A stretch of DNA of 64,000 nt from Acidisarcina polymorpha. Lineage in GTDB: Bacteria > Acidobacteriota > Terriglobia > Terriglobales > Acidobacteriaceae. Shown here piece by piece: positions 43,994 to 51,346 of the stretch. The stretch covers positions 4,216,001 through 4,280,000 of the forward strand of contig NZ_CP030840.1 of NCBI RefSeq assembly GCF_003330725.1, given 5' to 3'. Each line of letters opens with the position of its first letter. Position 1 is the stretch's first letter. The translations under genes were made by a program, and so were the position numbers. The notes under the pieces are model-generated. The model was not told where the DNA came from. It made no database searches and was given only the letters and a program-made list of their open reading frames with translations.

Positions 43994-45184
43994 ATGCTGA
44001 CTTTCACCGTGCGCGACATCTTGATCGGGATCGCCGCTATTCCCTTTATTTATTACGCGATCGCGCTTTTTAGCAGCATAAGATTTTTCTTGGGCAGCCG
44101 TGCCGCGTCGCCTGTTGGTTTTACTCCGCCGATCAGCAACCTTAAGCCGGTGCGCGGCCTGGATCCAGATGCCTACGAAAACTATGCGAGCTTCTGCCGG
44201 CAAGACTACCCGGACTATGAAGTTCTATTCTGTGTCGGCGATACCACCGACCCCGTGTTACCGGTTTTGCAGCGCCTCACGCGAGACTTCCCAGACTGCA
44301 AGATCCGGATCGTGATCGGATCGGGCCGCACAGCCACCAACGATAAAGTGGCCAAGCTGGCGCGAATGGTGGATGAGGCCGCGTACGAGCACCTTGTCAT
44401 CAGCGACAGCGACGTGCGGGTGGAACCGGATTACCTGCGTAGACTTATCGCACCGTTATCCGACCCTAAAGTCGGCGCCGTGACATGCTTCTATGTTCCC
44501 ACCGAGGAGACCAGCTGGGTGCAGCGGCTTCAGGATGTTGGCATGCTGTCGGACTTCTATCCAGGAATTCTAGTGGCGAAGCAGTTGGATGGAGTTAAAT
44601 TCGCGTTAGGGCCGACGATCGCGACCACCCGAGCCCGCCTGCATGCATTTGGAGGATACTCCGCAATTGAAAACCAGCCAGCCGACGATCTACTGGTCGG
44701 GCGTCTTATTGCGGAGCAGGGATGCGAGGTTGTTCTTCTACCCTATGCCATCACGACCGTTCCCGATTACCAGTCGCTGAGCGAGTTGTTCTACAAGCGC
44801 CTACGCTGGATCACAGTGATGCGCCACATGCGCCCATGGGGGCATCTCGGTCTGATCTTTACCTTGGGTCTGCCCTGGGCCCTTATGGCGGTGGCGGTTG
44901 ATCCAACGCCAGCCATCGCGGTCACCTACCTCGGCGGATATTTTGTGGTCCGCGCAGCATTGACTGCTCTAGTAGGTGGCTGGGGTCTCAAGCAAAAGGG
45001 AGTCTGGAAAAAACTCGCGTGGATTCCGGTATGGGATGCTATGGCCAGCCTGATCTGGCTGGCCAGTTTTGCCCGTAGAACGATCCGATGGCGAGGAAGG
45101 GATTACCTCATTCGCAATGGTGAGCTCGTACCTCTTTTGCCTGCAGAACCACACGCAAATGCCGGAAGTGAGGTCATTCCATAG
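43994..45184 (+). CDS. GT21-type (HpnI/ceramide glucosyltransferase-like) membrane glycosyltransferase
   Basis: A 396-residue membrane protein. An N-terminal transmembrane helix (IGIAAIPFIYYAIALF) is followed by a cytosolic GT-A domain with the LKPVRGLDPDAYENYASFCRQDYPDYEVLFC start, DSDVRV, the DDLLVGR acid motif and a K-R-LRW box before the C-terminal helices. This is the order seen in ceramide glucosyltransferase and in HpnI, which adds GlcNAc to bacteriohopanetetrol. No other hopanoid genes are adjacent, but the next genes on the opposite strand make UDP-sulfoquinovose, so the donor or acceptor may differ from HpnI. Confidence 0.85.
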   Translation: MLTFTVRDILIGIAAIPFIYYAIALFSSIRFFLGSRAASPVGFTPPISNLKPVRGLDPDAYENYASFCRQDYPDYEVLFCVGDTTDPVLPVLQRLTRDFPDCKIRIVIGSGRTATNDKVAKLARMVDEAAYEHLVISDSDVRVEPDYLRRLIAPLSDPKVGAVTCFYVPTEETSWVQRLQDVGMLSDFYPGILVAKQLDGVKFALGPTIATTRARLHAFGGYSAIENQPADDLLVGRLIAEQGCEVVLLPYAITTVPDYQSLSELFYKRLRWITVMRHMRPWGHLGLIFTLGLPWALMAVAVDPTPAIAVTYLGGYFVVRAALTALVGGWGLKQKGVWKKLAWIPVWDAMASLIWLASFARRTIRWRGRDYLIRNGELVPLLPAEPHANAGSEVIP

Positions 45185-45195
45185 AGCAAAGCCCG

Positions 45196-45217
45196 GTGGG
45201 CGCAGGGAGACGCCCAC
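45196..45217. terminator. Hairpin between convergent genes
   Basis: GTGGGCG (45196-45202) pairs perfectly with CGCCCAC (45211-45217) around an 8-base loop between the convergent 3' ends of the GT21 gene and sqdB. There is no T-run on either side. Confidence 0.5.
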
Positions 45218-45254
45218 AGGGCGTCACGCCTGCTTCCGGAGTAACCGAAACTCC

Positions 45255-46469
45255 CTATACCGCTTCTTTCACCAACACCGGCTGGCCTGCAACGTTGCCA
45301 GTCCGGCGCTCATTCCTCGCAGCTCGCCAGTTCACCTGCGGCGTGAATAAGGCCGGATCGATACGATCGCGGTACTGCAACGCGATATTGATCAGGGAAT
45401 CGACCAGCGAATTCGAAAGCAGATGCGGTTCCAGTCCCAGGTCGGCCAGCTTCGAATGCTTGGCATTGTAGTAGTGCGACTCCGCCTCGACACGCGGGTC
45501 GGGGAGGTGGTCGATTTCCACTCTCAAGCCCATTTCCTTCGCAACCGACTTCACGGCCTGCGCGAGCTCGAGGACGGAGAATTGTTCGGTGAACTGGTTA
45601 AAGACCCGGAATTCTCCACGTTTGGCAGGATTCAGACAGGCAAGCTCAATACATCGCACCGTATCGCGGATATCTAAGAATCCTCGCGTCTGCCCACCCT
45701 TGCCGTACACCGTGAGCGGGGAACCGATCGCTGCCTGCGCACAGAAACGGTTCAGCACTGTCCCGAAGACCTCATCGTAGTCAAAGCGATTGATCAACGC
45801 CTCGTCCATGAGAACTTCATCGGTAACGGTGCCGTACACCACGCCCTGGTTGAGGTCGGTGGCCCGAAGTCCCCAGACCTTACAGGTGAACATGATGTTG
45901 TGGCTGTCGTGGACCTTCGAAAGATGATAGAAAGAGCCGGGTTGCTTGGGGAAGGGAAGCGTGTCCGTACGGCCATTATGTTCAATGGTTAGGTAGCCTT
46001 CTTCAATGTCGATATTAGGCGTCCCATACTCACCCATGGTGCCGAGTTTGACGATGTGACAATCGGGATCGATCTCGCGCACCGCGAAGAGCAGGTTCAG
46101 CGTCCCCACGACGTTGTTGACCTGAGTAAACACCGCGTGTTTGTGATCAATCATGGAGTACGGCGCGGACCGCTGTTCGGCGAAATGGACCACCGCTTCG
46201 GGTTCAAAACTCTTCATTACCGAAGAAATAAAGTCGTATTCGGAGACATCTCCGACGAACAGTTCGATGACCTTCCCGGTCAGTTCGTACCAGGTCTTTA
46301 AGCGCTCCGTAAGCGGGCGGATCGGGGTAAGCGTTTGGACTCCAAGCTCGTGGTCCCATTGCCGCCGGGCAAAATTGTCGACGATTGCGACCGTGTGCCC
46401 CTTGCTGGAAAGATAGAGCGCGGTGGCCCAGCCACAGTAACCGTCACCACCAAGAACGGCAATTCTCAT
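45255..46469 (-). CDS. sqdB: UDP-sulfoquinovose synthase
   Basis: A 404-residue short-chain dehydrogenase-type enzyme that turns UDP-glucose plus sulfite into UDP-sulfoquinovose, the head group of sulfolipid. The Rossmann motif is [14 protein letters not shown]. Near-identity to plant SQD1 is visible in [30 protein letters not shown], the catalytic [12 protein letters not shown] (Tyr-Lys pair) and [13 protein letters not shown]. It is the last gene of the minus-strand run asnB - GT39 - sqdB. No SqdX/SqdD/SQD2-type lipid glycosyltransferase is seen in the window. Confidence 0.93.
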
Positions 46470-50320: not shown

Positions 50321-50529
50321 GCTCTCTTTGCTTCGCTCCCAATCCAGCCTTCGATTTCAATATGATGCGTTTGACGGGAAAAACATCAGCCGGGTTTCGT
50401 GGTCGCAGGCTAAGCGCCTCTGGACCATGCTTGATCCTAGCATCAGCATCCCTATTGCCTCTGCACGGTGAGGATGCAGTATTCGCGACGATACAATCGA
50501 AGGATGGGAATTGAAACAAGCACCGCTGG

Positions 50530-50970
50530 GTGGGACCGTTGACGTCCAGCCGGACCTTCCATCTAAAAACTTATTTGATGATCGCTGTGATGGTGGTGGC
50601 TGGACCGCTGGGAAATGTCCTGCTGGCAAAAGGAATGAAGAACAGCGGCAATCTGGTCATTTGGCCGCCCATGGCCCTCTATCATACGGCGCTCAACGTG
50701 TTTGCCGCTGGATCGATCTGGCTGGGGGTCGCTTCGCTGATCACTTTCTTTGTGGCATATATGCTGGTGCTCTCCTGGGCGGATTACAGCTTTGTCCAGC
50801 CTGCTTCATCGCTCGCCTACGGCGTAGTCGCGCTGCTCGGATATCTCATGCTGGGCGAGCGAGTGTCTCCATTGCGGTGGACCGGGATAGCCGTGATTTG
50901 CTTGGGCGTCTTCGTTGTCGGCCGCACTGATCCTCGCACCACGGTGCACCAGACTACGGAGCGGGTGTAG
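50530..50970 (+). CDS. Small EamA/DMT-family membrane protein (first of a pair)
   Basis: About 146 residues with four predicted helices, equal to half of a 10-helix EamA transporter (VMVVAGPLGNVLLAKGM, LGYLMLGERVSPLRWTGIAVICLGVFVVGR). It is the first of two adjacent half-size proteins, an arrangement seen in ArnE/ArnF, which flip undecaprenyl-phosphate-aminoarabinose. The start is uncertain: GTG 50530 is the most upstream; a later ATG is possible. It is divergent from asnB. Confidence 0.75.
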   Translation: MGPLTSSRTFHLKTYLMIAVMVVAGPLGNVLLAKGMKNSGNLVIWPPMALYHTALNVFAAGSIWLGVASLITFFVAYMLVLSWADYSFVQPASSLAYGVVALLGYLMLGERVSPLRWTGIAVICLGVFVVGRTDPRTTVHQTTERV

Positions 50971-50971
50971 C

Positions 50972-51346
50972 TTGCGGGACGTGATCTTGTTCACCTTGAT
51001 TGTCGCTGCCGGTACGGGCGGCGAACTATGCGTCTCGCGTGCGATGAAGGTCGTCGGCGAGGCCAGGAGCTTTCACCCCATCGAAATCGTGAAGGTCATT
51101 CTTCGCGCGCTCCGGGTTCCGTGGATGTGGCTGGGAGTTGGCATGATGGCGATCGCTTTCTTTGCCCTGCTCGGCGCCTTGTCCCTTTACAACGTGAGCT
51201 TTGTGGTTCCCGTAACCGCATTGAGCTACGTCGCCGGGGCCTTTGGGGGGGTGACTTTCCTGCGCGAACGCGTGAGTGCTCAACGCTGGCTAGGCGTCCT
51301 GCTGGTCGCGATCGGGGTCACTCTTGTCTTCCTGGGTAAAAGCTAG
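50972..51346 (+). CDS. Small EamA/DMT-family membrane protein (second of a pair)
   Basis: About 124 residues and four predicted helices (VILFTLIVAAGTGGELCVSRAM, VPVTALSYVAGAFGGVTFLRERVSAQRWLGVLLVAIGV). TTG 50972 lies one base past the stop of the preceding gene, with GGAG 10 bases before it; GTG 50915 or 50981 are alternatives. With the upstream half it probably forms one heterodimeric exporter or lipid-sugar flippase. Confidence 0.75.
   Translation: MRDVILFTLIVAAGTGGELCVSRAMKVVGEARSFHPIEIVKVILRALRVPWMWLGVGMMAIAFFALLGALSLYNVSFVVPVTALSYVAGAFGGVTFLRERVSAQRWLGVLLVAIGVTLVFLGKS

Follow-up and report, generated by a model that had tools for sequence, protein, structure and literature searches.

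A conserved gene cluster around a UDP-sulfoquinovose synthase gene in Acidisarcina polymorpha and other Acidobacteriota, with a possible role in transferring sulfoquinovose to the cell envelope

In bacteria, sulfoquinovose (SQ), an abundant sugar in nature, is known chiefly as part of the sulfolipid sulfoquinovosyl diacylglycerol (SQDG). A stretch of 64,000 nucleotides from the genome of Acidisarcina polymorpha SBC82 (NZ_CP030840.1, positions 4,216,001 to 4,280,000), referred to here as the window, contains between its positions 43,994 and 51,346 a cluster of six genes, encoding a GT21 glycosyltransferase, the UDP-sulfoquinovose synthase SqdB, a GT39 glycosyltransferase, the amidotransferase AsnB, and two half-size EamA-like membrane proteins (eam1 and eam2; Table 1). 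The cluster is a real conserved module, found largely together in many acidobacterial relatives. With a probability that we place at about one half, it encodes a dedicated pathway that puts SQ on a molecule of the cell envelope, separate from the SqdX route to SQDG. This proposal is based on gene content, conservation, co-occurrence, and family assignment, from which its later steps are inferred. The gene content and arrangement given by a first-pass annotation of the window were confirmed, with all six open reading frames in place on their respective strands. Among the matches listed in a search of the open-access literature on sulfoquinovose, sqdB/sqdX, and Arn-type transfer, judged by title and the start of the abstract, no description of such a cluster was found.

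The SqdB protein aligns with the plant enzyme SQD1 (1qrr) across residues 2-383 (E 1.8e-186) and is identical to it in the TMGEYGTP and YHLSK stretches, which we take to hold the catalytic Thr and the Tyr-x-x-x-Lys residues. It belongs to the Epimerase family and scores 501 bits against NCBIfam NF041015, under the curated cut-off of 575, which is a naming threshold and not a biochemical feature (13 of 14 control genomes match the model, one above the cut-off). By full-length similarity and identical catalytic stretches, the gene is thus a UDP-sulfoquinovose synthase gene, and production of UDP-SQ is predicted. In tblastn with the window proteins, five sqdB regions read from 22 matching plasmid records had no GT39, asnB, or eam relative. 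A Rhodococcus plasmid region contains a match to GT21 (25% over 282 residues), a Haladaptatus region a 25% match to the SqdX-like GT4, and a Pseudonocardia plasmid a GT2 gene beside sqdB, 24% identical to the window GT21 over 193 residues. One genome with the cluster (G492; genome, locus, and contig handles beginning with G, L, and C are ours) also has a second sqdB, 51% identical, in different surroundings that include a Cons_hypoth698 protein (L191, on G492:C106).

Conservation was followed at the best 80 of 572 sqdB relatives in named genomes, where partner genes were called by tblastn thresholds. All 80 loci are from Acidobacteriota (Acidobacteriaceae, Bryobacterales, gp2, Acidiferrales, Sulfotelmatobacter, and others). 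GT39 lies near sqdB in 53 of them, GT21 in 50, asnB in 47, and an eam gene in 30. Four kinds of partner occur at 18 loci, three at 20, two at 20, and one at 8, that is, 66/80 loci have at least one partner and 38/80 have three or four. Many of these loci end at contig ends; among the 34 that extend over at least 15 kb, 27 have a partner, 19 have at least three, and 7 have none. Gene orders vary, including asnB-GT39-sqdB-GT21 (L204), sqdB-asnB-GT39 (L231), and sqdB-GT39-asnB-GT21 (L269), and the genes therefore are kept together, not just inherited as one block. Since G233 and G329, two mutually close genomes from another genus of the family, keep all six genes in identical order, and G370 keeps five in order (GT39 is absent at that place, and was not searched for elsewhere in G370), the cluster is not a chance assembly. 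The genes flanking these three clusters differ from those of the window. A search of other acidobacterial genomes for this gene order, the check named by the first-pass annotation, thus showed the neighbourhood to be conserved. In an SqdB tree made by a quick method, with long outgroup branches, the cluster label changes 9 times, compared with 24.6 in shuffles; the context is clustered on the tree, and nothing more was drawn from it. In a sample of the phylum, an SqdB match at E <=1e-60 occurred in 24 of 396 genomes.

Co-occurrence was assessed in 120 genomes of the family, which share some metagenome-assembled genomes with the 80-locus set, and the two sets of counts thus overlap. SqdB is present in 20 of these genomes, and in 15 it is of the cluster type (at least 74%). 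The GT21 subfamily (at least 60%) is found in 15 genomes, 13 of them with cluster-type sqdB (Fisher p 1e-13); eam1 (at least 50%) in 13, with 12 (p 5e-13); and GT39 (at least 54%) in 31, with 14 (p 5e-9), all p values being optimistic because the genomes are related. That GT21 stands next to sqdB by chance was set aside, since the GT21 subfamily tracks sqdB across the family genomes.

The GT21 protein matches Pfam PF13506 with 127.5 bits, above the cut-off of 21.7, and its closest solved relative is the ceramide glucosyltransferase 26qf (E 8e-28). Its AlphaFold model (predicted local distance difference test, pLDDT, 89) has a membrane GT2 fold, with PcManGT, hyaluronan synthase, and cellulose synthase as best structural matches. 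In the Foldseek matches listed, GtrB comes up no higher than rank 37 and DPMS no higher than rank 49, and the 50 VIA matches include neither. These similarities of a predicted model do not settle which acceptor is used. The GT21 sequences in the loci split into a group at least 55% identical to that of the window (58 rows, 51 distinct) and a group at most 45% identical (30 rows, 28 distinct). R237, K268, and R269, near the RxxRW motif, are present in 97-100% of the 58 high-identity rows versus 0-20% of the 30 others, a pattern that fits an anionic substrate without demonstrating one. The first-pass annotation had described the protein as HpnI-like, which was not supported: the HpnI model TIGR03472 gives 298.3 bits, under its curated cut-off of 310. 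With this score, and with a group apart from the other GT21 proteins (at most 45%), the HpnI/hopanoid reading was dropped. No product link to hopanoids came up; no search of the genome for other hpn genes was made. The protein shares the GT21 family with ceramide glucosyltransferase and HpnI, but it represents a distinct, sqdB-linked subfamily with near-invariant residues of its own.

Several observations weigh against a dedicated SQ pathway. Some group-specific GT21 residues are expected from the way in which the groups were defined. Cluster-type sqdB occurs without the GT21 subfamily in 2 of the 15 genomes (G443, 83% complete, and G486), eam1 is absent from three cluster-type genomes (G432, G486, and G490), and G434 and G454 have the GT21 subfamily without cluster-type sqdB; several of these exceptional genomes are incomplete. 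No partner lies near sqdB in 14/80 loci, 7 of these on stretches of at least 15 kb, and in G370, L205, L233, and L240 the interval from asnB to sqdB has no GT39. An ArnC-like gene, found at some loci (see below), would be redundant if the carrier were charged by GT21. In 9 of 13 fetched GT39 regions without sqdB nearby, asnB adjoins GT39; the GT39 and asnB genes are therefore not specific to SQ, and they look like a wider chassis, with GT21 and the EamA pair looking like the SQ-linked parts. Finally, SBC82 itself has an SqdX-like GT4 gene (C1:4,808,948-4,810,084), about 0.55 Mb from the cluster.

The SqdX label of this GT4 is based on its kin lying close to sqdB at four loci and on an N-terminal FLPKxDGIVTxL-like stretch, present in the members looked at, which we take to be an SqdX-like motif. 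Such GT4 genes adjoin sqdB in G434 and G421 (L189 and L190) and lie one gene away from it in L263 and L265. The SBC82 protein is 49% identical to the GT4 beside sqdB in G434, the next best match being 32%. Of its 73 PDB matches, the 60 listed include no chain named SqdX or SQD2; of the 46 NCBIfam families matched by its counterparts in G434 and G421, the 25 listed include no SqdX model. Against plasmids, the G434 GT4 gave 8 matching records, 6 of them actinobacterial. Within the 80 sqdB loci, GT4 genes resembling the SqdX-like ones (66-67%) occur only in L263 and L265, both without the cluster. At E 1e-60, a threshold that would miss more divergent GT4 genes, SqdX-like GT4 was found in 8 of the 120 family genomes. 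The type nearest that of SBC82 (at least 60%) occurs in four (G000, which is SBC82, G476, G421, and G488), all with sqdB, and a second type in five (G421, G434, G482, G462, and G171), of which G462 and G171 are without sqdB. The cluster and a close GT4 thus coexist in 3 of the 15 cluster-type genomes (SBC82, G476, and G488), or 4 of 15 when the second type in G482 is added, and at the same threshold no SqdX-like GT4 was found in the other 11.

Because of its SqdX-like GT4, SBC82 may make ordinary SQDG in addition. It is quite improbable, however, that sqdB just feeds this GT4 and that the cluster is a glycan locus merely hosting sqdB. Such an arrangement would accord with the 49% identity between the SBC82 protein and the GT4 beside sqdB in G434, with the presence of sqdB in all four family genomes that have the closer GT4 type, and with the proximity of such genes to sqdB in L189, L190, L263, and L265. 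The GT21 subfamily and the EamA pair would then not be expected to follow sqdB, and a cluster existing mainly to serve the GT4 is unlikely, since the close GT4 is present in so few of the cluster-type genomes. The first-pass annotation had stated that the ordinary SQDG route is not what the cluster encodes. This accords with the cluster itself, which in the window has no GT4 gene of SqdX type beside sqdB, as an sqdB-sqdX operon has, and with the 11 genomes above; the SBC82 genome may encode that route elsewhere. Of the two observations that together would have spoken against its proposal, an SqdX/SQD2 gene elsewhere has a candidate in the SqdX-like GT4, and non-conservation of the neighbourhood was contradicted.

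GT21 could also be a third, unrelated SQDG synthase, transferring SQ to diacylglycerol, with GT39, asnB, and the EamA pair having another job. We consider this unlikely, although it is in line with the tracking of sqdB by GT21 in 13 of 15 genomes, with a lipid glucosyltransferase as nearest solved relative, and with the 11/15 cluster-type genomes without SqdX-like GT4 at E 1e-60. To our knowledge, SQDG needs none of GT39, asnB, and the EamA pair, and yet these stay near sqdB through rearrangements. In SBC82, G476, and G488, moreover, the close GT4 that accompanies the cluster would be redundant. A precedent exists in that two structurally unrelated SQDG synthases, SqdX and SqdD, are described in the available part of a published account (PMC5638391). 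The accessible portion of a study of SBC82 lists phosphatidylethanolamine, phosphohexose, an ornithine lipid, and an unknown lipid of m/z 751 as polar lipids and does not name SQDG (PMC6252331), which argues against SQDG as the product if the phosphate content of the medium is left out of consideration.

Of the remaining cluster proteins, GT39 and the EamA pair resemble parts of the Arn pathway. GT39 (PMT_2, 68 bits in Pfam) has ArnT (5ezm/5f15) as its only PDB match at E <=0.01 (1e-28), with a common GDWVT...YxEKPP stretch. Its score with the ArnT model NF009784 is 84.7 bits, under the curated cut-off of 567, so that the ArnT-like label of the first-pass annotation holds as sequence kinship and not as a match to the curated family. 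The asnB and GT39 frames overlap by about 100 bases (window 48407-48506), as do their counterparts in other genomes, and the start of GT39 is therefore uncertain. The eam1 and eam2 products each score 26.8 bits against Pfam PF00892 (cut-off 28.2) and 21.7 and 22.1 bits, respectively, against the ArnE model NF011625, both under its cut-off of 92; the structure model of eam1 is helical and of low confidence (pLDDT 68). In related loci, too, eam2 adjoins eam1. The ArnEF-like pair of the first-pass annotation is upheld as a layout of two paired half-size EamA-like genes, and the curated ArnE threshold is missed by both. AsnB scores 464.8 bits with TIGR01536, above the cut-off of 267.1, and has the SGGVDSS loop and the N-terminal Cys. 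Its best NCBIfam model is TIGR03108, an XrtA/PEP-CTERM amidotransferase (514 bits, under the cut-off of 816.9), and its best match among solved structures is the hydroxyamidotransferase 7ylz. It may have a housekeeping role, because no other close AsnB turned up in the genome, where the one further match is 25% identical. On a tree of GT39, the sequences labelled as having sqdB group together (7 changes versus 16.0 in shuffles). In this tree L150 was scored as sqdB-negative, although a second contig of that genome carries sqdB (L149), and L181 (G486), L135, and L146 likewise come from genomes that have sqdB elsewhere.

Variants of this chassis are found among the relatives. An ArnC-like gene occurs in 7 of the 80 sqdB loci, in 6 of them between GT39 and sqdB; in L229 the gene, 54% identical, lies some kilobases away. 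One ArnC-like protein has ArnC (9hwj) as best match among solved structures, followed by GtrB, and the two such proteins scanned are both under the curated ArnC cut-off. SBC82 has a 53% homologue elsewhere in its genome, and the surrounding 3.9 kb contain none of the cluster genes. GT39-GT21 paralogue pairs within 1.6 kb, made up of the other types of the two families, number at least 47 in at least 39 of the 120 family genomes, a lower bound taken from the matches listed, and 40 of the 47 are convergent. SBC82 has such a convergent pair without sqdB (C1:1,056,871-1,059,960; L042:7808-11176). Among the matches listed in the 120 genomes, no sqdB place lies inside a GT39-GT21 paralogue pair; the sulfo-cluster looks like a pair of this kind in which sqdB lies between the two members. 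In G434 and G482, which have sqdB elsewhere, a radical SAM/SPASM gene lies between GT21 and GT39, in the sqdB slot (L135:7020-8117 and L146:6091-7128). In G265, asnB-GT39 is followed by YdjC (HpnK-like, below the HpnK cut-off) and an ArnC-like gene, with no sqdB there.

In the dedicated pathway that we propose, SqdB would form UDP-SQ from UDP-glucose and sulfite. GT21, the subfamily of which follows sqdB, would then use UDP-SQ to attach SQ to a lipid on the cytoplasmic side of the membrane, and the two EamA proteins together might flip the SQ-lipid, as suggested by their phyletic tracking and by analogy with ArnEF. Known relatives of GT39 work in the periplasm with a sugar donor bound to polyprenyl phosphate. 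The cluster GT39 could there either hand SQ over from such a carrier to an acceptor in the envelope or add a further sugar to the SQ-lipid, two options that the data do not separate. AsnB, a member of the GT39 partner set, may amidate a carboxylate on a sugar or an acceptor. This is the weakest step, and the amidation proposed by the first-pass annotation is likewise a guess. A polyprenyl carrier is favoured by the 7 loci that have an ArnC-like gene, and a glycolipid version by the lipid acceptors known for the GT21 family.

An Arn-like form of this pathway, the odds of which overlap with those of the general proposal, is possible but falls clearly short of probable: SQ would be placed on undecaprenyl phosphate by GT21 or by an ArnC-like enzyme with its gene elsewhere in the genome, the EamA pair would flip the product, and GT39 would pass SQ on to lipid A or a different lipopolysaccharide or wall acceptor. 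The ArnT-like GT39, the ArnC-like genes at the sqdB loci and in SBC82, and the mostly convergent GT39-GT21 pairs favour it. Known GT21 enzymes act on lipid hydroxyls, however, and not on polyprenyl phosphate, the ArnC-like gene is present in a minority of loci, and the curated ArnT, ArnE, and ArnC cut-offs were missed. In a broader and equally tentative version, Acidobacteriota would possess a sulfonated counterpart of the aminoarabinose pathway, in which SQ on a polyprenyl or other lipid is flipped by EamA proteins and transferred by the ArnT-like enzyme to lipid A or a surface glycan. The chassis, GT39 and asnB joined by GT21 or an ArnC-like enzyme, might swap its sugar enzyme, with sqdB here, the radical SAM gene in G434 and G482, and the HpnK-like deacetylase by GT39 in G265.

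Among the closest known systems, ArnC-ArnEF-ArnT, which places 4-amino-4-deoxy-L-arabinose on lipid A, resembles the cluster in its ArnT-like GT39, its paired half-size EamA genes, and an adjacent nucleotide-sugar enzyme, and at 7/80 loci in an ArnC-like gene. The cluster differs from it in that the sugar enzyme is a UDP-sulfoquinovose synthase, in the presence of AsnB, in missing the curated ArnT and ArnE scores, and in that GT21 (50/80) is a commoner partner than the ArnC-like gene. The sulfoquinovose module with Arn-like layout of the first-pass annotation thus survives as a conserved, GT4-free cluster with these Arn-like parts, and not as a set of HpnI, ArnT, and ArnE proteins at curated strength. 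An sqdB-sqdX operon likewise includes a UDP-sulfoquinovose synthase gene, and the SqdB proteins of L263 and L265, one gene from an SqdX-like GT4, are 77-78% identical to that of the window; the window cluster has GT21, GT39, asnB, and EamA genes in place of a GT4. According to the available part of the source, Agl3 of Sulfolobus is a UDP-sulfoquinovose synthase that serves an N-glycan instead of SQDG (PMC4245038). That system differs in being one of archaeal N-glycosylation. We know of no GT21-GT39-asnB-EamA set in the Sulfolobus SQ N-glycan pathway.

Table 1. Genes of the sulfoquinovose-associated cluster, with positions in the 64,000-nucleotide window.
Feature	Position	Strand	Basis
GT21 membrane glycosyltransferase, SQ-associated subfamily	43994..45184	+	PF13506 127.5 bits
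sqdB, UDP-sulfoquinovose synthase (predicted)	45255..46469	-	full-length match to SQD1 1qrr
ArnT-like GT39/PMT_2 glycosyltransferase, start uncertain	46611..48506	-	PMT_2 68 bits; ArnT 5ezm match
asnB, glutamine-dependent asparagine-synthase-type amidotransferase	48407..50320	-	TIGR01536 465 bits
eam1, half-size EamA-like membrane protein	50530..50970	+	EamA 26.8 bits
eam2, second half-size EamA-like membrane protein, overlaps eam1	50915..51346	+	EamA 26.8 bits

Additional genes accompany the cluster or its relatives. Between sqdB and GT21, seven of the 80 loci (L239, L254, L257, L266, L272, L276, and L283) have a gene for a flavin adenine dinucleotide (FAD)-dependent oxidoreductase (DAO), accompanied in L239, L266, and L272 by a second protein family of unknown kind. 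SBC82 plasmid C4 carries a second eam1-like gene, 64% identical and with one internal stop (L188, 152001-170000; about 8149-9694). Close to it are a short fragment similar to the FAD oxidoreductase found with sqdB in some relatives and a second small EamA-like protein recognized by eye. A stretch of plasmid C4 gave no match in the plasmid collection, from which its own records may be left out. Upstream of the cluster, window positions 36000-43753 hold a set that looks catabolic for sugars or sugar acids, with an MR/MLE enzyme and an RraA-like protein (Pfam) and, on visual inspection alone, a regulator of LacI type and an MFS transporter.

Acidobacteriota are common in acidic soils and peat, and a conserved second SQ route in this phylum would be an unrecognised source of soil sulfoquinovose and would also add unrecognised surface chemistry. 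The conserved cluster raises the question of whether SQ is placed on something besides SQDG in a manner that depends on GT21 and GT39. If the sulfonated counterpart of the aminoarabinose pathway were to prove true, bacteria of acid soils would acquire a strongly anionic, phosphate-free coat on their envelope.

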